The notes beneath the pieces were generated by a model that made no database searches, was not told where the DNA came from, and saw only the letters and a list, made by a program, of their open reading frames with translations. From a virus: a stretch of 39,537 nt of DNA. The position numbers and the translations under genes were made by a program. Position 1 is the stretch's first letter. Each line of letters opens with the position of its first letter. Where the stretch lies: the IMG/VR virus record IMGVR_UViG_3300044998_000364, positions 1 to 39,537 of that record. One strand, given 5' to 3'. Shown here piece by piece: positions 101-39,537 of the stretch.

Positions 101-109
101 CGTAGCTGG
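101..109 (+). promoter_or_regulatory. CGTAGCTGG start-associated element (connector gene)
   Basis: Exact CGTAGCTGG, 4 nt before the ATG at 114. It abuts the terminator T-run ending at base 100. No purine-rich Shine-Dalgarno is present between the terminator and the ATG. Confidence 0.7.
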
Positions 110-2074: not shown

Positions 2075-2083
2075 CGTAGCTGG
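2075..2083 (+). promoter_or_regulatory. CGTAGCTGG start-associated element (major tail gene)
   Basis: Exact CGTAGCTGG followed by CGGC and the ATG at 2088. It occupies most of the 30-bp gap after the neck genes, and no GGAGG-type site is present. Confidence 0.7.
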
Positions 2084-2087
2084 CGGC

Positions 2088-2855
2088 ATGGCCAGAGCCA
2101 CTAACGCTGATATCGTTGTCTTTGGGATCGGTGCGACCGATTACCTGCCGTGGCTGGTTTCTGCCGACTTCAACTGGGACGTCACCCTTGAGTCCTGTGA
2201 GGGCATCAACGAGCGCTATCAGAGGGTAGCCGTCGAGACCAAGCGCACGCTGACCTTCTCGGCGAACATGAAGCGGCGCGTCAACGCTGCAGGAGCGTGC
2301 CAGACCAACAAGACGGTCACCACGCTCACCATCGGGGGCGTCTCGTTCCTTAGTGACTGGGAGTCGATCCGGATCGGGTACCAGAACGCCAACAGCCGAA
2401 GCGACGGAGGCGGTGCGTACCTTGCCCAGGTGCAGCTGCATAAACCGACCACGGTCTCGGTGACGATCAACCTCATGGCGAACCAGACCACTGCCACGTG
2501 GCTGGAGACCCTGGCTGACTCGGCGACGGCAACGCAGGCAACGGTCTCGGTGATCGACGGCGTGGGCACGTTGACCGTGTCGAGCTACATCAGGACGGTC
2601 CGCAAGTCCTGGCCGGAAGGCGGCATCTGCATGGTCGAGATCACCCTTGAGATGGGCGAGATCACCAGCGGTGGTGGTGGACTCTTTGCGACGGGTGCGA
2701 CGGGTACGGGCGCGATCACCTTCACTGCGAGCGATGGCGGCGACGCGATCGAGGGAACGGCGGTCATCCTCTCCGGCGATCTGCAGATCACCCGTGACCA
2801 GCGATCAAGCGAGAGCTACCAGTTCCACGTGAACACGGTCGCGGCGAGCGCGTAG
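2088..2855 (+). CDS. Putative major tail tube protein
   Basis: A 255-aa protein rich in Thr, Ser and Val with alternating beta strands, placed after the neck genes and before the chaperone and tape measure genes. This is the standard position of the tail tube subunit, which forms hexameric rings stacked along the tape measure. Residues about 165-200 look like the strand-rich part of a tube fold. A Gly-rich linker (about residues 195-205) leads to a short C-terminal domain, as seen in tail proteins with an added surface domain. A CGTAGCTGG element at spacing 4 marks the start. Identification is by position, size and composition. Confidence 0.6.
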   Translation: MARATNADIVVFGIGATDYLPWLVSADFNWDVTLESCEGINERYQRVAVETKRTLTFSANMKRRVNAAGACQTNKTVTTLTIGGVSFLSDWESIRIGYQNANSRSDGGGAYLAQVQLHKPTTVSVTINLMANQTTATWLETLADSATATQATVSVIDGVGTLTVSSYIRTVRKSWPEGGICMVEITLEMGEITSGGGGLFATGATGTGAITFTASDGGDAIEGTAVILSGDLQITRDQRSSESYQFHVNTVAASA

Positions 2856-2859
2856 GTAG
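2851..2859 (+). promoter_or_regulatory. Diverged start-associated element (CGTAGGTAG)
   Basis: CGTAGGTAG differs from CGTAGCTGG at two positions and sits 4 nt before the ATG at 2864. The stop codon of the major tail gene lies inside it. Confidence 0.4.
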
Positions 2860-3010: not shown

Positions 3011-3016
3011 TAACGC

Positions 3017-3048
3017 GGGAGTCGAGCATCCGGCTCCCTTCTTCATTT
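3017..3048 (+). terminator. Intrinsic terminator after the major tail unit
   Basis: A 7-bp stem (3017-3023 with 3032-3038, one G-U pair) and an 8-nt loop are followed by TTCTTCATTT. It separates the major tail unit from the convergent minus-strand gene ending at 3047. There is no T-run in the opposite direction. Confidence 0.6.
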
Positions 3049-3709
3049 ACAGGCTAGTGATGCCGGTGAACCGGGCGCTCGATGCATCAGATTCGAAGAA
3101 CACGGCCTTATATCTCCAGGTCTCCCAGGGACCGATCGAGGGGATCATATCCCATGCTTCCCCGACCTTGTTGCCCTGCCTATCGAAGAGGTCAAAGGTG
3201 ACTCTGACGCCTCGGATCCTCATGCCGGAATAGTTCTTTATTCGACCGACGCACGCATTGTTGAGCATCTCCCACTTTGGGTCGTAGACCAGTGGGAAGA
3301 AAGGGTAGCTCAGCTTTGGATCCAGCCCTATGGACTTCAAGTAGTCACGAACGAGAATCTCCTCGTTCTGCTCCGGAACGGCGGTTGGTACCTCTGACTT
3401 CTTCGCTGGTGCGGGTGGCAGCCCTTTCCTGATCTTCGCCATGCGCCTAGCCTGGTCGAACTCGTCCTTATGCAGCTGTTTGGTGATGGACTGAACGATG
3501 ATGAACCCCAAAAACGCTAGACCGAGGACCATGCTGACGATGCACCCGACCTTATTCGCTTTGCTCTGCTTTGGAGGTACACCGATCACCCTAGCGACTT
3601 GGACTGGAGAAAGACCCACCTGGTATTGATTCAAGAGCCAAGCTGGATCCACGTGGACTAAATCCACGCCTAAAGCCCTCACCCTGTCACACCAAACCTG
3701 GAAACTCAC
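3047..3709 (-). CDS. Moron membrane protein with FxLYD-like domain
   Basis: A 220-aa protein on the strand opposite the surrounding tail genes. Residues 1-45 (containing DPAWLLNQYQVGLSP) match the N-terminus of the other minus-strand gene at 4411-4845. A hydrophobic segment (about residues 53-72) is probably a membrane anchor, then a charged Lys/Pro-rich linker, then a C-terminal domain of about 75 aa with GRIKNYSG, VRVTFDLFDRQGN and a Trp/aromatic pattern typical of FxLYD domains, which act outside the membrane. The frame stays open upstream, but GTG at 3709 is chosen because it aligns with the start of its paralog and lies 6 nt after TACAAT in both. Probably lysogenic-conversion or superinfection-exclusion cargo; function not proven. 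Confidence 0.65.
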   Translation of the reverse strand: MSFQVWCDRVRALGVDLVHVDPAWLLNQYQVGLSPVQVARVIGVPPKQSKANKVGCIVSMVLGLAFLGFIIVQSITKQLHKDEFDQARRMAKIRKGLPPAPAKKSEVPTAVPEQNEEILVRDYLKSIGLDPKLSYPFFPLVYDPKWEMLNNACVGRIKNYSGMRIRGVRVTFDLFDRQGNKVGEAWDMIPSIGPWETWRYKAVFFESDASSARFTGITSL

Positions 3710-3715
3710 GACCAC

Positions 3716-3721
3716 ATTGTA
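3716..3721 (-). promoter_or_regulatory. TACAAT -10 box, leaderless start (moron 1)
   Basis: TACAAT on the minus strand lies exactly 6 nt before the GTG at 3709, the same arrangement as at 4852-4857. Transcription starting 6-7 nt after this box would begin at the GTG itself. The box lies only 17 bp from the divergent CGTAGCTGG element at 3739. Confidence 0.55.
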
Positions 3722-3738
3722 CGGCTTTGGCGTACGGT

Positions 3739-3747
3739 CGTAGCTGG
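3739..3747 (+). promoter_or_regulatory. CGTAGCTGG start-associated element (chaperone gene)
   Basis: Exact CGTAGCTGG, 5 nt before the ATG at 3753. It sits in the short divergent interval shared with the minus-strand moron. Confidence 0.7.
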
Positions 3748-4247: not shown

Positions 4248-4414
4248 GCCCGTCACATAGGGCACGGGTGAAGCTCTCGATCAAGTTCTTTAACAAACAT
4301 CCCGACGACCTGAATTTTCGAGAGAGGATATCTCTCATGAAGCTTGCGGCTTACGAGGTGACTCGTGATCCAGAAGCGCAGGCAGTCTTCCTAGTGGACC
4401 CTACCAAGCTCTAG
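4238..4414 (+). CDS. -1 frame extension of tail chaperone (gpGT-like T part)
   Basis: Reading in the -1 frame from the A-run gives 58 codons with no stop until TAG at 4412-4414. The fusion would be about 220 aa: 162 from frame 0 plus 58. The extension contains VKLSIKFFNKHPDD, MKLAAYEVTRDPEAQAVFL and a short polar end, a plausible folded helical domain. In siphoviruses the frameshifted chaperone binds both tape measure and tail tube. No independent start with a ribosome site was seen for this segment. Its stop codon overlaps the convergent stop of the minus-strand moron at the shared CTAG. Confidence 0.7.
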   Translation, partial: RLLSPSHRARVKLSIKFFNKHPDDLNFRERISLMKLAAYEVTRDPEAQAVFLVDPTKL

Positions 4415-4845
4415 AACGCTTGGCGGGGTCTCGCCTCGTCCCCTTGCTCTATGTAGTTGCAGCGCCTGCACTGGCGCTTCTGGTCGTGCGAGACCGGGTG
4501 GTGGTTTGCAGCTGAAGTGATCCAGGCGATGCATAAGCACACCGTCACAATCAGGCTAAAAAAGCCCGTGCATGGGGAAAGGAAGATACTCAACAGGATC
4601 GCAGGCACGTAGAAATTCGCCAAGCCGGGAGCGCGGTAGACGGAGGCAGCCCACTGCCACTCGGTGCTCCTGCAAGAAGGACAGAGGTATTCCGGCATCT
4701 TTGGAGCCTGGCCTGTGCGGATCAGCTGTGCGGCAAGCGGAGGACTCATACCAGCGTTAAATTGACCCATGAGCCACCCTGGGTCTGTTTGCCAAGCCAT
4801 ACGTTCAATTCGACGTAAGTCCTTAATCCAAGAATCAAAATCCAC
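4411..4845 (-). CDS. Moron membrane protein with split zinc ribbon
   Basis: A 144-aa protein on the opposite strand inside the tail genes. Residues 1-45 (DPGWLMGQFNAGMSPPLAA) match the N-terminal module of the 3047-3709 protein. A CPSC knuckle at about residues 55-58 and a CRRC knuckle at about 126-129 could form one zinc ribbon, with two adjacent hydrophobic segments (about residues 75-112) forming a membrane hairpin between the two halves. The start is GTG at 4845, 6 nt after TACAAT. The stop overlaps the -1 frame stop of the chaperone. Probably a lysogeny-expressed accessory gene; no function can be assigned. Confidence 0.6.
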   Translation of the reverse strand: MDFDSWIKDLRRIERMAWQTDPGWLMGQFNAGMSPPLAAQLIRTGQAPKMPEYLCPSCRSTEWQWAASVYRAPGLANFYVPAILLSIFLSPCTGFFSLIVTVCLCIAWITSAANHHPVSHDQKRQCRRCNYIEQGDEARPRQAF

Positions 4846-4851
4846 GGTTCT

Positions 4852-4857
4852 ATTGTA
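4852..4857 (-). promoter_or_regulatory. TACAAT -10 box, leaderless start (moron 2)
   Basis: TACAAT lies 6 nt before the GTG at 4845, identical in sequence and spacing to the box serving the paralogous gene at 3709. The divergent CGTAGCTGG element begins 13 bp away at 4871. Confidence 0.55.
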
Positions 4858-4870
4858 AACCTCAGCCCTT

Positions 4871-4879
4871 CGTAGCTGG
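4871..4879 (+). promoter_or_regulatory. CGTAGCTGG start-associated element (tape measure)
   Basis: Exact CGTAGCTGG, 4 nt before the ATG at 4884. No Shine-Dalgarno is present nearby. Confidence 0.7.
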
Positions 4880-6439: not shown

Positions 6440-6445
6440 TATCTT
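6440..6445 (+). promoter_or_regulatory. Extended -10 box TGTTATCTT before moron 3
   Basis: TATCTT preceded by TGT (extended -10 form) lies 7 nt before the ATG at 6453. With no Shine-Dalgarno and only 7 nt between box and ATG, this looks like a leaderless host-type promoter for an independently expressed moron. Confidence 0.45.
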
Positions 6446-7569: not shown

Positions 7570-7578
7570 CGTAGCTAC
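7570..7578 (+). promoter_or_regulatory. Start-associated element variant CGTAGCTAC
   Basis: CGTAGCTAC differs from the consensus at the last two bases and lies 5 nt before the ATG at 7584. It marks the return to structural genes after the moron insertion. Confidence 0.55.
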
Positions 7579-13127: not shown

Positions 13128-13136
13128 CGTAGCTGG
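13128..13136 (+). promoter_or_regulatory. CGTAGCTGG start-associated element
   Basis: Exact CGTAGCTGG, 7 nt before the ATG at 13144. This is one of the two longest spacings seen. Confidence 0.65.
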
Positions 13137-15894: not shown

Positions 15895-16054
15895 GACTAC
15901 CAGCTGGTAGTCAACCTGGTAGTCAGCCAGATCCTTGGGAGTGCTCTCAGACTCGCCACAGGTTGTCTCAGCACGATCCCGTTGAACCTACAGGTGTGCC
16001 GGGTGGAATCTCATTATCTCCACCATTGAACCTAAAAAGGCTGTTTTGACTACC
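15895..16054. other. attP: Putative attP with arm-type sites
   Basis: This gene-poor stretch lies immediately 3' of the integrase. GACTACCAG (15895-15903) abuts its inverse CTGGTAGTC as an 18-bp palindrome, another CTGGTAGTCA follows at 15916-15925, and one more inverted GACTACC lies at 16048-16054. These repeats look like arm-type integrase sites flanking the tRNA-like core at 16006-16025. The arrangement (three sites on one side, one on the other) is typical of tyrosine-integrase attP regions. The rest of 15841-16049 shows only a short TAGAC-loop-GTCTA hairpin (15848-15861). Confidence 0.6.
16006..16025 (+). other. Putative att core: 3' end of a tRNA or tmRNA
   Basis: CTCATTATCTCCACCA preceded by GAAT fits the last 20 bases of a tRNA-like molecule: the end of the T-loop (GAAT), T-stem 3' strand CTCAT, acceptor strand TATCTCC, discriminator A, then CCA. 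Phages often integrate into such 3' ends and restore them. The implied host gene would start with GGAGATA, as in a tRNA-Ser or a tmRNA. No full tRNA can be folded here, as expected for an attP copy. Confidence 0.55.
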
Positions 16055-17099
16055 GCAAAATGGGAGTCAAACTTTCTAACGCTTCTTCGATCCGGGCGGC
16101 ACCCGTCCCGATATAGACGGTAGTCATGTCCGGCTTAGCGTGCCCAAGCACCGCCTGAGAACTCAGAACGTTTCCACCCGTAGCAGCCTCAATCAGCCCC
16201 GCTGCGCCATGCCTAAGGTCGTGAAAGGTCCATCCTTTCAGCTCTTCGCATTCATCGGCGAACCTCGCGAAGTGGAACGTGATCATCCGAGGCGAGACCG
16301 GACAGATCGCTTGCCCGTCAAGATCGCCCCAGGTGTCGATGAAGTCGATGAACTTCTGCGGAAGGATGAGAGTGCGCTTGCTCGAGCTGGTCTTTAGGTT
16401 CGTGACCTTCCCGGCGTTGTCGAGCTGCCTCCTTACCTGGAGCGTTCGCTTCTTTCGATCTAGATCGTCCCAAGTGAGGCCAGCGATTTCACCGCGGCGA
16501 AGACCCATAAGGAGCGCCATGAAGACAGGCAGCTTCATGAAGTCCGGACACTTCTCTAAAACGGTCGCGGCCTCCTCGACACCGAGCACGCGCTCCCGCT
16601 TCTCTGGCGGCTTCGGAATGTTCACGAGCTTCCCGCAAGGGTTGCGATTGATGAGCTCGTGCGCCTCGGCCATGTCGAGGATCTGGTGAAGTACTCCATA
16701 GACGAAGCGGACTCCGTTCGCCTCCATCGTCTTCGTTGACGCTCCCTTCCCTGACCTGCTCACCTGCTTCTTTGCGAGAGTGTTCACGAACGTCTGGACC
16801 ACGCTGGGCGTGATATCGCTCACGGCTTTGCGACCGAGTGCCGGGCGAATGTGCTGTACGAAGGCGGCTTCGTACCTGCGCCTGGTCGTGTCCTTTAGAC
16901 CTTCGATCCGTGGGTACCAGAGCCAGATCGCGACTTCAAGCAGCGTCGATGTCGACGAGCAGCGGGTGGACCTTAGGGAGTCGAGCTTTTCTTGAAGGAG
17001 TGCGTTCGCCTCCTCCTGGCTCTCCTTGCTGTAGGCAAAGATCTTCTTCCCTTCCACTCTCGCTGTGGCTTGGAACCGTCCATCTTTGCGCTTGCTCAT
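16050..17099 (-). CDS. int: Tyrosine-type integrase
   Basis: Site-specific recombinase of the lambda-integrase family, 349 aa from the chosen ATG. The N-terminal arm-binding domain (residues 1-45, DGRFQATARVEGKKIFAYSK) is followed by a SAM-like core-binding domain (about 45-165) and the catalytic domain. Catalytic residues are visible as GLRRGE (Arg201), HDLRHG (His293, Arg296), LGHAKPD (His320) and the nucleophile Tyr329 in TTVYIG. Another in-frame ATG at 17141 would add 14 residues. ATG 17099 is preferred because TACAAT lies 9 nt upstream and the protein then begins at the usual domain boundary. It overlaps the putative xis gene and is followed directly by attP. Confidence 0.92.
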   Translation of the reverse strand: MSKRKDGRFQATARVEGKKIFAYSKESQEEANALLQEKLDSLRSTRCSSTSTLLEVAIWLWYPRIEGLKDTTRRRYEAAFVQHIRPALGRKAVSDITPSVVQTFVNTLAKKQVSRSGKGASTKTMEANGVRFVYGVLHQILDMAEAHELINRNPCGKLVNIPKPPEKRERVLGVEEAATVLEKCPDFMKLPVFMALLMGLRRGEIAGLTWDDLDRKKRTLQVRRQLDNAGKVTNLKTSSSKRTLILPQKFIDFIDTWGDLDGQAICPVSPRMITFHFARFADECEELKGWTFHDLRHGAAGLIEAATGGNVLSSQAVLGHAKPDMTTVYIGTGAARIEEALESLTPILR

Positions 17100-17259
17100 C
17101 GATGAGGAATTGTAGCCAGCGATCGAGTTGGGATTTTTCATATTTGTTGATGACCGGTAAAGGTACGAGGCCTTCCGACTTCAGCGCGAGCAGCTTCGCC
17201 ACCCCGATTCCGAGATAGCGAGCCGCCTCTGCTTGGGTCAGGAAGACAGGTGATTCCAT
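16936..17259 (-). CDS. xis: Putative excisionase (MerR-like HTH)
   Basis: The N-terminal 55 residues (LTQAEAARYLGIGVAKLLAL then INKYEKSQLDRWLQFLI) form a winged-helix HTH of the MerR/excisionase kind (HTH_17), which bends attachment-site DNA and directs the integrase toward excision. The gene lies immediately upstream of int, as in many temperate phages. The frame continues to 107 aa and overlaps int by about 160 nt; the C-terminal half is low-complexity and Arg/Gly-rich, so it may be a true extension or merely a frame without a stop. GGGAG 8 nt before the ATG supports the start. It could instead be a small transcriptional regulator. Confidence 0.65.
   Translation of the reverse strand: MESPVFLTQAEAARYLGIGVAKLLALKSEGLVPLPVINKYEKSQLDRWLQFLIDEQAQRWTVPSHSESGREEDLCLQQGEPGGGERTPSRKARLPKVHPLLVDIDAA
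17109..17114 (-). promoter_or_regulatory. TACAAT -10 box near the integrase start
   Basis: TACAAT on the minus strand, 9 nt before the integrase ATG at 17099. It is the same hexamer as at the two minus-strand morons and could drive integrase from a nearly leaderless transcript, independent of the leftward operon promoter. Confidence 0.35.
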
Positions 17260-22963: not shown

Positions 22964-23605
22964 TTACGGCCGGATGCCTGTTGGGTCGTGGTCAGTGATC
23001 CTTCTGAGACCAATCATGCGGATGTAGCCAATCAGGAAGCCTACGACCGAACCCGTTGCCGGCTGGATCTCGTAGCCTCTGTTCTCGGGCTGTAGATAAA
23101 ACTCTGTGCCGTTGTGCTTGAGCGTCTTAACCGTGCACTTGTCGTCATGGCTTCGGAACAGGATCACGCAGCCGAGTCGCGGGACCTCAGACTTCTTAAA
23201 GACACACAGGTCTTCTGGGTGAAGTAGCGGATACATCGAGTCGCCAAGGATGCGGCAGCAAAACAGGCCTTTGTCGTCACCCATGTGACTCGGCACGTAC
23301 TCAAACTCATCAGATTCAAGAGGATCGCTGTAGTGCATTGGACTCGAAGCAGAGATGTGGCCGATGTACGGGATCGGTATATCGAGAGTCGGTGCTGGAA
23401 TCTTGAAAGGAGATATCTCAGGCGTCTTCCTCTCCAGATCGTCGACCTGGCGGAGGATATCGCTAGGCGGTTCATGCCCGTACTCCCAGTTCTTATAAGC
23501 GTTCAGAGCGACGCCAAGCTTTTGAGCCATCTCCCGCTGGGTTAGGTCCAAAAGCTTGCGAAGCGAACGCAAACGGTCGCTTGTGTTGGTGGCCACAAGA
23601 AGCAT
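22964..23605 (-). CDS. CI/LexA-type phage repressor (HTH + S24 peptidase)
   Basis: A 213-aa lysogeny repressor. Residues 9-55 form an HTH_3 domain (LTQREMAQKLGVALNAYKNWE), and after a Pro-rich linker residues 80-205 form an S24 autopeptidase. ILGDSMYPLLHP supplies Ser123, and TVKTLKHNG supplies the general-base Lys160. Such repressors are cleaved in a RecA-dependent way during the SOS response, so DNA damage should induce the prophage. It is transcribed leftward between two identical-type operators, controlling the leftward operon and the divergent rightward operon. No Ala-Gly or Cys-Gly cleavage dipeptide is obvious in the linker; the site may be unusual. Confidence 0.9.
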   Translation of the reverse strand: MLLVATNTSDRLRSLRKLLDLTQREMAQKLGVALNAYKNWEYGHEPPSDILRQVDDLERKTPEISPFKIPAPTLDIPIPYIGHISASSPMHYSDPLESDEFEYVPSHMGDDKGLFCCRILGDSMYPLLHPEDLCVFKKSEVPRLGCVILFRSHDDKCTVKTLKHNGTEFYLQPENRGYEIQPATGSVVGFLIGYIRMIGLRRITDHDPTGIRP

Positions 23606-23620
23606 TTTTTAAAACTTGGA

Positions 23621-23626
23621 AATCTA
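23621..23626 (-). promoter_or_regulatory. Candidate -10 of the repressor promoter
   Basis: TAGATT on the minus strand (revcomp of AATCTA), 15 nt before the repressor ATG at 23605, with the OR operator just upstream. No Shine-Dalgarno precedes the ATG, so the leader would be very short. This is the weakest of the promoter calls in the immunity region. Confidence 0.3.
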
Positions 23627-23629
23627 ACC

Positions 23630-23645
23630 TCTACACTTTTGTAGA
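23630..23645. promoter_or_regulatory. Repressor operator OR
   Basis: TCTACAC-TT-TTGTAGA, matching the perfect palindrome at 22930 except for one base of the left arm and the central pair. It sits in the divergent region between repressor and rightward genes. A further half-like TGTAGA lies at 23682-23687 inside the first rightward gene. Confidence 0.7.
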
Positions 23646-23654
23646 ACTTTAGCG

Positions 23655-23660
23655 TACACT
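23655..23660 (+). promoter_or_regulatory. Rightward early promoter (PR) -10, leaderless
   Basis: TACACT ends 7 nt before the ATG at 23668, so a transcript starting 7 nt after the box would begin at the start codon. The operator at 23630-23645 overlaps the expected spacer/-35 region. Confidence 0.5.
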
Positions 23661-23667
23661 CCGTGCG

Positions 23668-23976
23668 ATGGCGATAGCCTCTGTAGACAAAACCAGTGAC
23701 CTTACTAGGCAGGAGGTGTGGGATGAGGTCCAAAGACTCATCGACGAAGGCGTGCCTGTGAGTAGGGCTACAGCCAGATTCGGTCTCCACCGGACCGCTT
23801 ACTACAAGCGCATTCAAAGAAATGGGGCCTCGTCCACCAACGAGAACCCCGCACCGCAATCCACTTCGGAGAACTTTCGTGGACGCGACGTTAACGCTAA
23901 CTACGATACCGCTTCTCCGCTCGACGAGGTGAGGACCTCGGCAAGCAAAGAAGATGACATCAGAGCAACTGCATAG
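23668..23976 (+). CDS. Small HTH protein, first gene of rightward operon
   Basis: A 102-aa protein. Residues 12-52 (LTRQEVWDEVQRLIDEG, VSRATARFGLHRTAYYKRI) form a helix-turn-helix of the transposase/Hin type. The C-terminal half is polar and disordered. As the first rightward gene opposite the repressor it occupies the position of Cro or CII, and may be an antirepressor-type switch or an activator. The ATG lies 7 nt after TACACT with no ribosome site, consistent with leaderless translation. Family membership beyond the HTH is unclear. Confidence 0.6.
   Translation: MAIASVDKTSDLTRQEVWDEVQRLIDEGVPVSRATARFGLHRTAYYKRIQRNGASSTNENPAPQSTSENFRGRDVNANYDTASPLDEVRTSASKEDDIRATA

Positions 23977-26891: not shown

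Positions 26892-26899
<8 letters not shown>
26516..26899 (+). CDS. VRR-NUC domain nuclease
   Basis: A 127-aa single-domain nuclease of the PD-(D/E)XK superfamily. The core GVPDLLVH and TLIGLEVKRPGG gives the metal-binding Asp, Glu and Lys, and RPDQKALAEAG supplies the downstream Gln-containing helix. Stand-alone phage VRR-NUC proteins are structure-selective nucleases acting on branched DNA (Holliday or flap structures) during replication and recombination. ATG 26516 is chosen at the domain start; it precedes the initiator gene, with which it overlaps by 8 bases. It probably resolves replication intermediates before packaging. Confidence 0.88.
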
Positions 26900-27919
<1,020 letters not shown>

Positions 27920-27923
<4 letters not shown>

Positions 27924-29269
27924 GCGACTTCCTGGAAGGGGTTCCCCTAACCTCGTCGATCGAAGCCGAGATGTCGGTCCTCGGTTCGATGATCCTTTCG
28001 CGGAAAGCCGCCAGCGGCATGGCGACGTACCTGAAGACTTGGGACTTCTACCGTCCAGCCCACCGCTGGATTTTCGAGACCATGAAGCAAATGGTGGTGG
28101 CCGGGCAAGAGATCGACCTGGTCACCCTGCGCGCCAAGCTGATCGAGAAGGGGAAGCTTGCCGACTGTGGTGGTGTCGACTTCCTAGTTGAACTCGCGGA
28201 ATACGTCCCGAGTGCAGCCAACGCGATTGATTACGCCAAGCTGATCCGAGATCGAGCCATCCGGCGAAAGATGCACAAGCTCTCCCGCTCGGTGGTCGAC
28301 CTTGCCACGAACGGTGAGAAGCCGACCGACCAGATCCTCCTGGAAGTCAAAGGGCTTCTCCGGGAGATCGAGGAAGAAGAGGCGCTCGGCAAGTCGAGGC
28401 TTATCAGCATCGGCGAGGTCGTTCGCGAGATCGTCGACGGGTACCAGGACGAGGATTCACCGTCTGCGCTGCTCAGCCAGGTCATGGTTCCCACAGGTAT
28501 CGCCTCTCTCGATCGCTACAATGTGCTCAAGCGAGGCGGCATGATGATCGTCGCAGGTCGTCCAGGCATGGGCAAGTCGAGTCTAGGCATGACCGTGGCT
28601 TCCAACATCGCCGAGCAGGGCAAGAACGTGGTGATCGTCTCGTACGAGATGCCCCCGGTTCAGCTCGTGAGAAGGCTCCTCGCGGCGAACGCAGGGTTAT
28701 CGGTGAAGGCGCTCAGCAGCAAGGAGGCGTTCCTCAAAATTGCCGACCTCGACACCCACCTAAAGCTTCAGGACGGGGCAGAGGCGATCTTCCACCGCAC
28801 GGTGTACTTCGTGGACAAGCCTTCCAAAAAGTGGTCAGAGCTGGAGGTGCAGCTCCTCCAAGCACAGGCTCAGCTCGGGCGAATCGACTGCCTGGTGATC
28901 GACTATCTCCAGCTCATGGCGCAGGGCACCCAGTACCAAGCGGCAGAGATATCGCACGCGGCCAACTGGATGAAGGGGTTCTGCATGGAGCACGACATTG
29001 CAGGCATCGGGCTTGCCCAGCTCAAGCGAGATGCGGCAGGGACGTCTAAGAAACCAACGATCGAAGACCTGAAAGGGAGCAGCGGACTCGAAGAAGCAGC
29101 AGACTCGGTAGTTCTTATTTACAGAGACTCATACCAGGGCGAAAAAAGGGTAGACCCAAGCCAGCCACAAGAGGTCGATCTTATCATCGGCAAGAACCGT
29201 GACGGTGAGTCAGGAGTCACCGCGAGGGCCTACTTCATCCCTGAGCAGACCGCGTTCCGGTCGGCATGA
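27920..29269 (+). CDS. dnaB-like: DnaB-type replicative helicase
   Basis: A 449-aa protein. Residues 10-110 form the DnaB N-terminal helical domain (SSIEAEMSVLGSMILSRKAA). The RecA-like ATPase has Walker A GRPGMGKSS at 213-221, Walker B CLVIDYLQLM near 330-340, and the DnaB-specific LKGSSGLEEAADSVVLIYRD region, ending with the IIGKNRDGESG motif. It is the hexameric 5'-3' helicase of the phage replisome, loaded at the origin by the upstream initiator. The length equals that of bacterial DnaB. GTG start in a GTGA overlap with the initiator gene. No DnaA, primase or polymerase is seen, so host enzymes must be used. Confidence 0.93.
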
Positions 29270-29300: not shown

Positions 29301-29729
29301 ATGAGCAGCGAGATTCAAGAGTTCATGCCAGGTCGCAACGGAGGCAAACTCCGGCGCGGTGGTGGTCGCCCGAAGAAGGCGAACTCCAAGTGGTCTCAGA
29401 TGCTCGACGCTGTTCGAAAAGAGCTACGAGAGAAAACCGGCATCGTCGAAGACGGAGAAGAACTGACCAACGAGCAGGTGCTCGCGAAGATCATCGTTAG
29501 GGCCTCCCTCGAGGGCAACATGGAGCTGCTTCAGTTCGTTCTCAAGCTCGCCGACAAGGACGACACGTACGTCCGTGACCGCAAGGACACGCTGGAAGAT
29601 CGAGCTGCCAAAGCACGCGAGCTGGCTGAGCTGGAAGCGAAGAAGGCGTACGTCGACATGGATCCGCTCTTTAACGGTTGGAGCGATGAGGAACTGGAAC
29701 AAGAGGCAAGGAGGCTGCTAGGAGCATGA
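29301..29729 (+). CDS. Possible small terminase subunit
   Basis: A 142-aa basic-then-acidic protein. The N-terminus GRNGGKLRRGGGRPKKA is an AT-hook-like Gly/Arg/Lys segment often present at the start of phage small terminase or DUF5681-type proteins. The remainder is helical (ELREKTGIVEDGEELTNEQV, DRAAKARELAELEAKK). It starts about 30 bases after the helicase and overlaps the sigma-like gene by 4 bases (ATGA). No other small-terminase candidate is visible, but the large subunit lies 3.7 kb away, so the call is tentative; a DNA-binding regulator is equally possible. Confidence 0.35.
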   Translation: MSSEIQEFMPGRNGGKLRRGGGRPKKANSKWSQMLDAVRKELREKTGIVEDGEELTNEQVLAKIIVRASLEGNMELLQFVLKLADKDDTYVRDRKDTLEDRAAKARELAELEAKKAYVDMDPLFNGWSDEELEQEARRLLGA

Positions 29730-30529
29730 CCGAAGAACTAAGGCAGTACGAGCACTCGCTCGTTGAGAAGATCCGCAGAGGGCGGCTGGAGGCGTGGGGT
29801 CCGCTGCTGGACCTGCACGAGCCACGCATCGCAGACCTTGCGGCTCGGTGGAAGATCGACGAGGCCGAGGTCGCCTCTGTCGTGATCGACAAGCTCCGGT
29901 ACGCGGTCGAGAACTATCGCGAAGGGTCGGCGTCCATCTGGGGTTTCACGAAGCAGCTCGTCGACCGTGCCCTCATCGACCGCACGCGCAAGGTCGAGCA
30001 CACGCGCAAGATCCACCTGAGCCACATCGAGGAGCGGTGCGGTGAGCACGTGCCCAGCGCATTCGTCGTGCGTGAGCAAGAAGCGAGCGTGGACACTTCC
30101 TTGGCGTGGCTCCTGATCCACAAGGAGCTGTGCCGGCAGATCATCTACAAGAACGCTCCTGAGGCAGTGACTGCGGTCTTCCGGCTGTATCTCAACCAGC
30201 GAAGGGCAGAGCGGTGCATCGGGCGCAAGGCGCTTTACGACGTCCTGGGCGAGTTCGGGATTCCCGACCCGCAAGGCAAGCCGATCGCGCAGGTGCCCTT
30301 GTTCGTGGACGGACTGGGCGCGAGCCTGGTCGACGATTACTGCCTGCTCGGTGAGCGGATCATGAAGGCAGTGACCGCAGGGACGCAGATCAGAGCCGTG
30401 GGCGCGAAGATCGGTGAGAACGGCAAGCTCGTGATGGCGTACCGGAAGCACCTTCAGGTCGTGGCTTCACTCGTAGCTGAGAGCGATGAGCAAGGCATAT
30501 ACGAGGCTGGTTCCAAAGCCGTCTCCTAG
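29726..30529 (+). CDS. Sigma-70-like (ECF-type region 2) late regulator candidate
   Basis: A 267-aa protein. Residues 12-92 follow the layout of sigma region 2: a helix after RGRLEAWGPLLDLHEPRI, then EAEVASVVIDKLRYAVENY and SIWGFTKQLVDRALIDRTRK. The last closely parallels the ECF pattern of a FxxWL-like helix ending in aDxxRkxxR that recognises -10 DNA. The C-terminal part (about 150-260) is helical; a region-4 HTH may lie around residues 230-262 but is not certain. The position, between replication and late genes, is that of late activators such as RinA/ArpU. The endolysin gene starts inside its 3' end, behind a near-exact copy of the late CGTAGCTGG element. Sigma identity is inferred, not proven. 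Confidence 0.55.
   Translation: MTEELRQYEHSLVEKIRRGRLEAWGPLLDLHEPRIADLAARWKIDEAEVASVVIDKLRYAVENYREGSASIWGFTKQLVDRALIDRTRKVEHTRKIHLSHIEERCGEHVPSAFVVREQEASVDTSLAWLLIHKELCRQIIYKNAPEAVTAVFRLYLNQRRAERCIGRKALYDVLGEFGIPDPQGKPIAQVPLFVDGLGASLVDDYCLLGERIMKAVTAGTQIRAVGAKIGENGKLVMAYRKHLQVVASLVAESDEQGIYEAGSKAVS
30472..30480 (+). promoter_or_regulatory. Start-associated element variant CGTAGCTGA (endolysin)
   Basis: One mismatch to CGTAGCTGG, 5 nt before the ATG at 30486. It is embedded in the coding 3' end of the sigma-like gene and is the first element met in the late direction. Confidence 0.6.
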
Positions 30530-31046
30530 TTCGATCAACTCGGGGCTGTCCAACCTGAAAGCCTCCACGTGCGCCAGGGTGCTAGGCGTGCCCTCGAAAG
30601 AGAAGGCGGGCACGTCCTGCATCGCGGTCTCCAAGCTGAACCCGAAGCTTCGCGAGAAGATCGTCACCGAGGACGTTGGGCCGTTCAGGGTCACTGGTCA
30701 CCGGGCAGCGGTCGCCTCGCTTCGGCGGGTCTTCCTCCACGTCAAGGCGTCGGACCCAGAGCTGTACGAATCGCTTGGCAGCGCGGGCATGCTCTGTGCT
30801 CGCCTTGTCCGTGGATCCACGAGCACGTGGTCGAACCACTCGTGGGGAATGGCGGTCGATCTCATTATCGACGGCAAGCTCGACCGTCGAGGCGACGACC
30901 TGGTCCAGCACGGGCTGCTCACCCTGTACAAGCACTTCCACCGGGAAGGGTGGTTCTGGGGTGCCGAGTTCAACACCGAGGACGCGATGCACTTCGAGGT
31001 CGCCGAGGAGACGTTCCTCGCCTGGGAACGACAGGGGCTACTGTGA
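30486..31046 (+). CDS. Endolysin, M15-family peptidase
   Basis: A 186-aa VanY/CwlK-type L,D/D-Ala peptidase that cleaves the peptide part of peptidoglycan. The zinc ligands are visible: SNHSWGMAVD gives His118 and Asp125, and DAMHFEV gives His169. There is no signal peptide or separate binding domain, so release needs the holin encoded directly downstream. The start overlaps the end of the sigma-like gene by 44 bases, and the stop overlaps the holin start (GTGA). The N-terminal 40 residues are Ser/Lys-rich and probably flexible. Confidence 0.85.
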   Translation: MSKAYTRLVPKPSPSSINSGLSNLKASTCARVLGVPSKEKAGTSCIAVSKLNPKLREKIVTEDVGPFRVTGHRAAVASLRRVFLHVKASDPELYESLGSAGMLCARLVRGSTSTWSNHSWGMAVDLIIDGKLDRRGDDLVQHGLLTLYKHFHREGWFWGAEFNTEDAMHFEVAEETFLAWERQGLL

Positions 31047-31525
31047 AGCTCGCGACGACCGTCGCGCTGCACAAGTGGCTTAACGCGTCGACGTTACTTG
31101 TCGGGGCCACTTCGTTCTGGTCCGGCTTCGTCTTCCGCACGGAGGCTGAGAAGATCCTCTTCACCGCCATGTTCGCGGCGATCGTGCTGGATATCATCAC
31201 CGGCATTGCCGCCAGCTACAAAGAGGGTAAGGCGATCAGCTCGAGTCGCATGCGGGACGCCATCCCGAAGCTGATCGGGTACATGGCGTTCATCCTCATG
31301 TCGATCCTCGTCGGCCAGGTCATGAAGACGCTCGGCGCACCGATCCCTCCGGAGGCTGTAGTGACGGGTGCCACGGGCCTCGTGTTCTCGATCGAGGCGC
31401 ACAGCGTGCTTGAGAACGTCCACCGCCTAACCGGCATGAAGACTCAGTGGCTCATGCGGTGGCTAAAGGGTCGGCTCGACGAGCAGACGCGAGATGAGGC
31501 GGATGAACCGAGAATCCGAACTTGA
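31043..31525 (+). CDS. Holin (phi29/Cph1-like family)
   Basis: A 160-aa membrane protein with three to four hydrophobic helices at about residues 15-30, 38-58, 75-95 and 102-122. The segment FAAIVLDIITGIAASYKEGK followed by SSSRMRDAI is the signature of phage_holin_4-type holins (LDxxTG...SS). The C-terminus is charged and cytoplasmic. It forms the membrane lesion that lets the adjacent M15 endolysin reach the wall. GTG start, coupled to the endolysin gene by GTGA. Confidence 0.85.
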   Translation: MKLATTVALHKWLNASTLLVGATSFWSGFVFRTEAEKILFTAMFAAIVLDIITGIAASYKEGKAISSSRMRDAIPKLIGYMAFILMSILVGQVMKTLGAPIPPEAVVTGATGLVFSIEAHSVLENVHRLTGMKTQWLMRWLKGRLDEQTRDEADEPRIRT

Positions 31526-31781: not shown

Positions 31782-31790
31782 CGTAGCTGG
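31782..31790 (+). promoter_or_regulatory. CGTAGCTGG start-associated element
   Basis: Exact CGTAGCTGG, 5 nt before the ATG at 31796, directly after a perfect inverted repeat. Confidence 0.7.
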
Positions 31791-31795
31791 GATCG

Positions 31796-32191
31796 ATGAT
31801 CCAAGAACCAAAACCCGACATCTTTTCCTCGATCACAGGCAAAGGTGAATGGCGTCCTTGCCCGTTCGAGAGTGCTACCGCGTTCCAGCTTGGTGGCAAG
31901 GTCTATACCGCCCCACACGCTCAGAACGTTGACAACTATGTTGTGTTCACTGTTGGGGCAGCTAACACCCGCATTCACAAGAGAGATCTCGCCATCTTCG
32001 GAATTCAGCCTGTGGAGTGGGTTGAAGAGCCGCTAGTGGACACGGTTCTTGAATGGACGTCGATTGAGCGCAATGGCATGGTCTACTTAGCTTTTCCGGT
32101 GGGCGACGTGTACCACGAGGGGCAGGCATTCATAAGCACCATCAAGGGCGACCGGTTTCGAATCACCGAGATACTCGGGGCTGATTCGTAG
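31796..32191 (+). CDS. Hypothetical beta-rich protein, 131 aa
   Basis: A 131-aa protein with regular beta strands (KVYTAPHAQNVDNYVVFTV, MVYLAFPVGDVYHEGQAFI, RFRITEILG) and few helices, probably a small barrel or sandwich. It starts a late transcription unit of short unknown genes between the lysis cassette and the large terminase. No family recognised. Confidence 0.6.
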   Translation: MIQEPKPDIFSSITGKGEWRPCPFESATAFQLGGKVYTAPHAQNVDNYVVFTVGAANTRIHKRDLAIFGIQPVEWVEEPLVDTVLEWTSIERNGMVYLAFPVGDVYHEGQAFISTIKGDRFRITEILGADS

Positions 32192-32195
32192 GTGG
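32187..32195 (+). promoter_or_regulatory. Start-associated element variant CGTAGGTGG
   Basis: One mismatch to CGTAGCTGG. It contains the stop codon of the upstream gene and lies 5 nt before the ATG at 32201 (2 nt before the alternative ATG 32198). The spacing rule of the other elements favours 32201. Confidence 0.5.
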
Positions 32196-33001: not shown

Positions 33002-33010
33002 CGTAGCTGG
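33002..33010 (+). promoter_or_regulatory. CGTAGCTGG start-associated element
   Basis: Exact CGTAGCTGG, 7 nt before the ATG at 33018. Confidence 0.65.
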
Positions 33011-34869: not shown

Positions 34870-34878
34870 CGTAGCTGG
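34870..34878 (+). promoter_or_regulatory. CGTAGCTGG start-associated element (portal)
   Basis: Exact CGTAGCTGG, 4 nt before the ATG at 34883. Confidence 0.7.
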
Positions 34879-36179: not shown

Positions 36180-36872
36180 ATGGAAGTGCGCGTGATCGTC
36201 CAGCCGGACGACTTGAGCGACAACGCAGCGCTGCAGGCGTGGAATGCGGACCATCTGCGGTACCGCTGGAAAGAGGCGCAGCGCCTCCTCAAGGCGTTCG
36301 CCGAGGGGCGGCTCGGTGCCGAGGACTGGTACGACGCCATGGACGGTCTGCTCCTGGAGGGGCACACCAACGCTTCGTGGATTGGAAGAGCGTTCGGTCT
36401 CGACCTGAGTGACTCGCCCACCGAGGACGACATTCTTCTGGGTCGCGCCATGCGAGACGCTGATGGCGACTATCTGCTGAACTTCCTGGATGACCTAGAG
36501 GCAGGGCGATACGTCGACAAGGCGGGCGACTTCATGCTCAAGAGCGCCCAGGCCCGGGCGCGGCTCTACGTCGGCAAGATGCGAGGCACGACCGGGCAGG
36601 CGATGGTCGACGCGCTCGGCGACGAGGCCCTGCACACGTGGCGGCTCAGCGCCATCGAGGAGCACTGCACCGAGTGCCCTGAGCTGGCCCAGATATTCGT
36701 GAAGGTCCCGCGTTCCGAGCTGTGGACCACGCCAGGCGGTGGGCGAACGCCGTGCCTTGGAAACTGCCTGTGCTTCCTAGAGAGTGAATCCGTAGCTGGG
36801 GACGTGATCACTGGACCCACGAGCGTGTCTCTGTCCTACGAGAACGAGGAATTCAATGAGCAAGCAGCCTAA
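36180..36872 (+). CDS. Minor head / head morphogenesis protein (Mu F-like)
   Basis: A 230-aa protein. The C-terminal part has the cysteine pattern HCTECPELAQI and GGGRTPCLGNCLCFL, characteristic of the phage_Mu_F / SPP1 gp7-like minor head family, where Cys/His residues probably bind a metal. The N-terminal two-thirds are helical (WKEAQRLLKAFAEGRLGAED). These proteins bind the portal and assist early head assembly or DNA ejection. It lies between the portal and the protease. It is shorter than many relatives. An internal CGTAGCTGG lies near its 3' end. Confidence 0.75.
   Translation: MEVRVIVQPDDLSDNAALQAWNADHLRYRWKEAQRLLKAFAEGRLGAEDWYDAMDGLLLEGHTNASWIGRAFGLDLSDSPTEDDILLGRAMRDADGDYLLNFLDDLEAGRYVDKAGDFMLKSAQARARLYVGKMRGTTGQAMVDALGDEALHTWRLSAIEEHCTECPELAQIFVKVPRSELWTTPGGGRTPCLGNCLCFLESESVAGDVITGPTSVSLSYENEEFNEQAA
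36791..36799 (+). promoter_or_regulatory. CGTAGCTGG element inside a coding region
   Basis: Exact CGTAGCTGG within the minor head gene, 57 nt before the protease ATG at 36856, which has its own GAGGA ribosome site. A GTG in the same frame as the minor head gene follows at spacing 4 (36804), which would give only 22 residues. The location fits a promoter for the protease and distal gene better than a ribosome site. Confidence 0.55.
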
Positions 36873-37665: not shown

Positions 37666-37688
37666 TCGCCCTTGACCATCACCAGAAG

Positions 37689-37712
37689 GCCCGGATCACT
37701 CCGGGCTTTTTT
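37689..37712 (+). terminator. Intrinsic terminator before the capsid gene
   Basis: GCCCGG-ATCACT-CCGGGC, a perfect 6-bp stem followed by TTTTTT (37707-37712). Capsid expression therefore needs read-through or a fresh start in the 30 bp before its ATG, where the CGTAGCTGG element lies. Confidence 0.85.
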
Positions 37713-37728: not shown

Positions 37729-37737
37729 CGTAGCTGG
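37729..37737 (+). promoter_or_regulatory. CGTAGCTGG start-associated element (capsid)
   Basis: Exact CGTAGCTGG, 5 nt before the ATG at 37743 and 17 nt after a strong terminator. Confidence 0.7.
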
Positions 37738-39454: not shown

Positions 39455-39537
39455 TACATCTAGGACACCGACCAAGGGCCTCCTGCTACCTCCCTGGCAG
39501 GGGGCTTTTTCGTAGCTGGCGACATGCCGGCAAATTT
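39411..39537. repeat. Terminal direct repeat, copy 2 (circle overlap)
   Basis: Identical to bases 1-127. It contains the second copy of the terminator (39478-39510), the element at 39511-39519 and the first codons of the connector gene from 39524. Confidence 0.9.

Follow-up and report, generated by a model that had tools for sequence, protein, structure and literature searches.

A temperate tailed phage encodes, between its replication and late genes, a protein (P0001) that is probably a phage sigma factor, driving late promoters built from a -10 element only and thereby giving rise to leaderless or near-leaderless mRNAs. A sigma region-2 domain is found in the protein, and a recurring sequence element with a fixed, start-like step and no detectable -35 sequence is restricted to the late arm of the genome.

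The window comprises the whole of IMG/VR record IMGVR_UViG_3300044998_000364, that is 39,537 bases with a G+C content of 59%, and a 127-base direct repeat at its ends leaves 39,410 unique bases. Replication genes are oriented rightward up to the DnaB-type helicase gene, and the late arm leads from an endolysin-like gene to terminase, portal, capsid, head-tail adaptor and tape measure, crossing the record's end (Table 1). As the initial annotation had stated, the P0001 gene lies between these two groups, with the helicase gene and a 142-aa gene upstream and the endolysin-like and packaging genes downstream. The 142-aa gene, which was absent from that annotation, separates helicase and sigma-like gene; speculatively, its position as operon partner makes its product a candidate cofactor or co-activator, or else a packaging protein. 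On the early side, the interval 23605-23670, leading from the CI-like gene to the rightward ORF at 23668, holds the palindrome CTACACTTTTGTAG and a TACACT 7 nt ahead of the ATG, likely an operator and early promoter, where a leaderless RNA is also possible. The replisome-organiser gene contains GCCAGA hexamers in tandem (27353-27400).

Table 1. Genes, protein domains and late-element copies in the window
Feature	Position	Strand	Remarks
Late element	101-109	+	Abuts terminator U-run (stem 80-94); head-tail adaptor gene start 114
Late element	2075-2083	+	Gene start 2088
Weak variant element CGTAGGTAG	2851-2859	+	48-aa ORF start 2864
Late element	3739-3747	+	Gene start 3753
Late element	4871-4879	+	Tape-measure gene start 4884
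Variant element CGTAGCTAC	7570-7578	+	774-aa late ORF start 7584
Late element	13128-13136	+	Gene start 13144
Integrase	16050-17141		
CI-like repressor	22964-23605	-	
Replisome organiser	26892-27923		Upstream of ORF 29726-30529
DnaB-type helicase	27920-29269		Upstream of ORF 29726-30529
142-aa gene	29301-29729	+	Function unassigned; weak match to PHROG 2412 (family of unknown function)
Phage sigma-like gene, P0001	29726-30529	+	ATG ORF, 267 aa; last gene of replication operon
Sigma region-2 domain, residues 1-97	29726-30016	+	Profiles, alignment, predicted fold
C-terminal part, residues 98-267	30017-30526	+	Without recognisable sigma region 4
Late element CGTAGCTGA	30472-30480	+	Within 3' end of sigma-like gene; 5 nt on, endolysin-like gene start 30486
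Endolysin-like gene	30486-31046		Downstream of ORF 29726-30529; packaging genes come after
Late element	31782-31790	+	Gene start 31796
Variant late element CGTAGGTGG	32187-32195	+	43-aa ORF start 32201
Late element	33002-33010	+	Gene start 33018, ahead of TerL 33346
Late element	34870-34878	+	Portal gene start 34883
Late element	36791-36799	+	22-codon GTG ORF at 36804; next sizeable gene 36856
Late element	37729-37737	+	17 nt past terminator 37684-37711; major capsid gene start 37743

The sigma-like protein

The P0001 gene is preceded by a strong Shine-Dalgarno sequence (AAGGAGGCTGCTAGGAGC-ATG, -11.3 kcal) and overlaps the stop of the preceding gene by 4 nt. Its product had been described as containing a region-2-like stretch, a description with which the NCBIfam sigma models, an alignment to E. 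coli RpoE and the AlphaFold fold all agree; SIWGFTKQLVDRALIDRTRK corresponds to residues 70-89. Searching NCBIfam with P0001 returned six sigma-factor models and no other family, all matching the N-terminal part only and all far below their cut-offs (best E 9e-4; best match 18.9 bits against a cut-off of 208). Pfam and PHROG family searches gave no match, nor did PF04542 (Sigma70_r2) and TIGR02937. As P0001 stays under the curated cut-off of every sigma family tried (Sigma70_r2, TIGR02937, NCBIfam equivalogs), it cannot be assigned to any of them, and that it works like a sigma factor is better supported than that it is a member of such a family. Profile models of RinA and ArpU (TIGR01636, TIGR01637), families to which a relationship had also been considered, did not match at E<=10.

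Pairwise alignment of whole P0001 with RpoE of E. coli MG1655 scored 67, compared with a mean of 31.7 in 1000 shuffles (s.d. 4.9, maximum 59), and residues 1-100 against RpoE 1-95 scored 64 (2000 shuffles: 24.3±4.3, maximum 50). The conserved DVVQE stretch is partly kept in this alignment, as SVVID; judged by sequence, the usual motif contacting the beta' clamp of core polymerase thus appears to be retained only in part.

AlphaFold (AF2, no alignment input) predicted four helices over residues 3-105, with a mean pLDDT of 74-90 in the blocks covering residues 1-80. Foldseek searches with this model yielded a PDB list consisting almost entirely of sigma factors, albeit with weak E-values (best 0.04) because two thirds of the model are unreliable. 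The sigma-2 fold that the initial annotation had proposed to look for is present in the predicted model: in VIA-align, sigmaE ranked first (Z 10.4, 2.8 Å, 91 residues), followed by sigmaE region 2 on -10 DNA (Z 9.9) and SigW (Z 9.8), 49 of 50 rows being sigma factors and T4 gp55 appearing at Z 6.5 over 112 residues, all in a range (Z below about 13) where helical bundles may share merely a common arrangement. Such a mere resemblance is unlikely here, given the uniform list and the independent sequence evidence. Together, family profiles, pairwise alignment and predicted fold make the assignment of the N-terminal ~97 residues to a sigma region-2 domain well supported. Residues 98-267, in turn, showed no similarity to RpoE region 4 when aligned, and folded alone they reached a pLDDT of 37.

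The late element and its register to gene starts

The late element, TCGTAGCTGG-nnn-C-R, is present in 14 plus-strand copies, 11 of them near-identical and three variant, all within the late arm from 30472 through the record's end to 13128; 13 of the 14 sit 4-7 nt before a gene start. Chance does not account for the word: there are 11 plus-strand and no minus-strand occurrences of CGTAGCTG, against a mean of 0.34 and a maximum of 3 in first-order Markov controls. A weight matrix added the variants at 2851, 7570 and 32187, each 4-5 nt before a start codon, with scores of 5.9, 8.0 and 14.6, respectively; the first two are included for their position alone, since they score below the chance maxima of the Markov controls, which average 11.4. 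The copy at 101 recurs at 39511, in the terminal repeat. When the same scan was applied to ~300 other phage stretches, no 8-mer came near this word's association with start codons, except for Shine-Dalgarno words and for low-count or internally repeated words.

Two late-arm intervals without a clear rightward gene, 3011-3738 (~730 bases) and 4248-4870 (~620 bases), each end in an element copy. On the minus strand, TGTAGCTGG at 31206-31220 is followed 5 nt later by the ATG of a 78-codon frame that runs antisense to gene 31043-31525. This near-copy at 31220 has a matrix score of 17, a value that the best shuffles also reach, and was discounted as probably a chance match, although it could mark an antisense start.

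Past the word come three free bases and then, 12 nt from its first C, another C (11/14; a pyrimidine in 13/14), followed at 13 nt by a purine in all 14 copies. In six copies the ATG or GTG begins with this purine, and in eight the purine lies 1-3 nt before the start codon. In these eight it is always G, and in six of them it directly precedes the ATG, a place where only one of 15 other genes has a G (p about 1.3e-4). The pyrimidine-purine step thus keeps a constant distance from the word but not from the start codon, as expected of a transcription start. We infer that the purine is the RNA start (+1), so that the word spans -13 to -5 and late RNAs are predicted to have their 5' ends about 13 nt past the C of CGTAGCTGG.

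The statement that no conserved -35 sequence precedes the copies also held: comparing positions -32 to -12 of all 14 by fixed columns and shared 5-7-mers, with both fixed and variable spacing allowed, revealed nothing beyond random late-arm positions. Consensus sigma-70 promoters were no more frequent in the late arm than in shuffles. The word itself is G+C-rich for a -10 element, which counts against reading it as a promoter.

Terminators point to new transcription starts. The copy at 101 begins directly past a terminator U-run and that at 37729 lies 17 nt past a 12-pair terminator stem, so the genes behind both need to be transcribed anew; terminator-like sites overall were no more frequent than in shuffles, and the argument is therefore confined to these two copies. 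Gene arrangement follows the element as well. With gene starts chosen by the analyst, none of the ten late genes that overlap their predecessors has an adjacent element, compared with 13 of the 16 other late genes; TerL (33346) and the TTG-started frames at 6444 and 6833 are exceptions that follow gaps without an element. Shine-Dalgarno pairing as strong as in early genes such as 24147, 27920 and 29726 (-11 to -12.5 kcal) does not occur at genes behind an element, a few of which pair moderately (13144 at -8.4, 32201 at -7.1). Gene 36856, which starts 52 nt past the predicted RNA start of copy 36791, has its own modest Shine-Dalgarno-like GAGGAA (-5.9 kcal). A 22-codon GTG ORF (36804-36872) begins exactly at that predicted RNA start and overlaps the start of gene 36856; it is possibly a leader peptide.

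Taken together, the fixed pyrimidine-purine step, the lack of a -35, the lack of strong Shine-Dalgarno pairing, the two upstream terminators and the 52-nt distance behind copy 36791 support the initial proposal of a -10-only word with transcription beginning at or next to the start codon. The first late gene does begin within the 3' end of the sigma-like gene, as that proposal had it.

Searches for relatives covered phages and plasmids (tblastn), IMG/VR and GTDB genomes, from which near relatives may be absent, and returned none for P0001. Nor was one present in 50 records sharing a PHROG 874 protein; a single 26-residue match inside an 802-aa frame of one such record was judged a chance hit. 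Terminase and portal queries against IMG/VR gave no kin, helicase kin were remote only, and major-capsid kin (28-41% identical) had neither the element nor a P0001-like protein. Scanning IMG/VR for TCGTAGCTGGnnnCATG yielded 113 stretches, none with a comparable set of start-adjacent copies. No relative with both protein and element, in which co-variation of the two might show, came out of these searches.

A proposed late switch and its alternatives

In the mechanism we favor, host polymerase would transcribe the replication operon, whose last product is the sigma-type factor. Through its region-2 domain this factor would engage the core RNA polymerase of the host and read TCGTAGCTGG as a -10 element without a -35. 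RNA synthesis would then begin on the purine 13 nt past the initial C of the word, in most copies behind a pyrimidine. As this base would either open the start codon or precede it by 1-3 nt, most late mRNAs would be leaderless or have almost no leader. The lysis, packaging, head and tail transcription units each carry their own element copy; genes within a unit overlap their predecessors and would be translated by coupling, and copy 30472, inside the 3' end of the sigma-like gene, would provide a separate late start for the lysis genes. Mycobacteria translate RNAs beginning with ATG or GTG (PMC4633059), so a host with this ability could use leaderless late RNAs; copies at which 1-3 bases remain ahead of the start codon would require some tolerance in translation.

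The earlier suggestion that the sigma-like protein reads the late element thus stands as far as the sigma-2 domain and the -10-only word are concerned, and recognition of the word by P0001 is what we infer from gene position, regulon and analogy. The word's resemblance to the CGTA of SigW is suggestive only.

The element could instead be a translation-initiation or RNA-level sequence associated with gene starts, the sigma-like protein serving some other role. This is unlikely, even though the single orientation and the spacing of 13 of the 14 copies fit it, and start-associated sequences (SAS) of cluster K mycobacteriophages are likewise short asymmetric repeats few bases before start codons, typically 3-7 bp (PMC3203893). 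SAS, however, have an AGGAG core and occur among non-structural genes, whereas the present element has no Shine-Dalgarno core and is confined to the late arm. Its C-R step keeps its distance to the element rather than to the start codon, two copies stand directly behind terminators, and behind copy 36791 there are 52 nt from the predicted RNA start to the next sizeable gene, although the 22-codon ORF begins at that RNA start.

Alternatively, the late promoter might be read by another factor, such as an alternative sigma of the host or a phage activator that escaped recognition, with the sigma-2 protein acting as a mimic or regulator, for instance a PhyR-like anti-sigma decoy. The lack of a detectable region 4, the incomplete polymerase-contact motif and the putative status of word recognition would suit this scenario. 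We nevertheless consider it improbable, as sigma-70-like promoters in the late arm do not exceed shuffles, the sigma-2 gene lies directly ahead of the first element copy, and the scan of late-side genes recognised no further transcription factor. Finally, it is very improbable that the copies are asymmetric repressor sites silencing late genes in the lysogen like L5 stoperators: the phage is temperate with a CI-like repressor, and the sites share one orientation relative to transcription, but L5-type stoperators also occur at the repressor-controlled early promoter, whereas the element has no copy in or near the repressor or early-promoter region, nor anywhere outside the late arm, and it keeps a fixed start-like step and a register to the start codon.

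A sigma factor acting on -10-only late promoters therefore remains our preferred reading. A more specific version is possible, though we hold it only tentatively: P0001 would be a minimal temperate-phage sigma in which region 2 is joined to a novel C-terminal domain instead of region 4, serving G+C-rich -10-only promoters placed on start codons, such that much of the late regulon yields leaderless or near-leaderless mRNAs and one word sets both the timing and the manner of translation. The system is small and directly testable, both for sigma action without -35 contacts and for late timing tied to leaderless translation; if the reading is true, the 10-bp word, by turning on late genes, would also make a compact, orthogonal part for gene expression.

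Comparison with known systems

The closest parallel is T4 gp55, likewise a sigma-2-type phage protein serving late genes through one short, highly conserved box without a -35; the T4 late promoter TATAAATA covers -13 to -6 (PMC1524935), the same register to the RNA start as predicted here. Unlike the present system, virulent myovirus T4 additionally employs gp33 and the gp45 clamp and has an A+T-rich box, and the P0001 fold matches ECF region 2 better than gp55. The sigma factors of phiEco32 (gp36) and phage 7-11 use tAATGTAtA-type promoters, a single extended -10-like motif of ~9 bp with few, well-conserved copies before late genes (PMC4331800). P0001 resembles gp36 in being a phage-encoded sigma-type protein associated with one such motif at late genes. 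These podovirus-type phages differ in the word and in their divergent gene clusters, and their promoters are not described as fused to start codons. Aligning P0001 with gp36 gave a score of 29, against 31±5 for shuffles, and the similarity of gp36 to RpoE was equally undetectable by this method. ECF sigmas (E. coli RpoE, B. subtilis SigW) share the region-2 domain by sequence and predicted fold; in contrast to them, P0001 has no recognisable region 4, stays below family cut-offs and, assuming that the element is its promoter, would operate without a -35. In two other phage contigs, L212 (1535, 6218, 9082, 10496, 13180) and L221 (12410, 13922, 14157, 20051), start-like codons have TATAATAA and TAAATATA words a few nt upstream, reminiscent of T4-type late promoters.

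RinA and ArpU, the late activators of temperate phages of Gram-positive bacteria, are encoded at the end of the replication module, before lysis and packaging genes. The P0001 gene occupies the same position, although the protein matches neither family model. Single-box promoters for phage-encoded sigmas are already established for T4 gp55 and phiEco32 gp36 and predicted for 7-11 (PMC1524935, PMC4331800); the present case differs from them in its temperate phage, in a register next to the start codon, in a G+C-rich word and in the lack of a recognisable region 4. Those single-box late promoters of phage sigmas that could be documented belong to virulent phages (T4, phiEco32, 7-11), whereas the present candidate is found in a temperate phage, at a RinA/ArpU-type position and with its box fused to the start codon.
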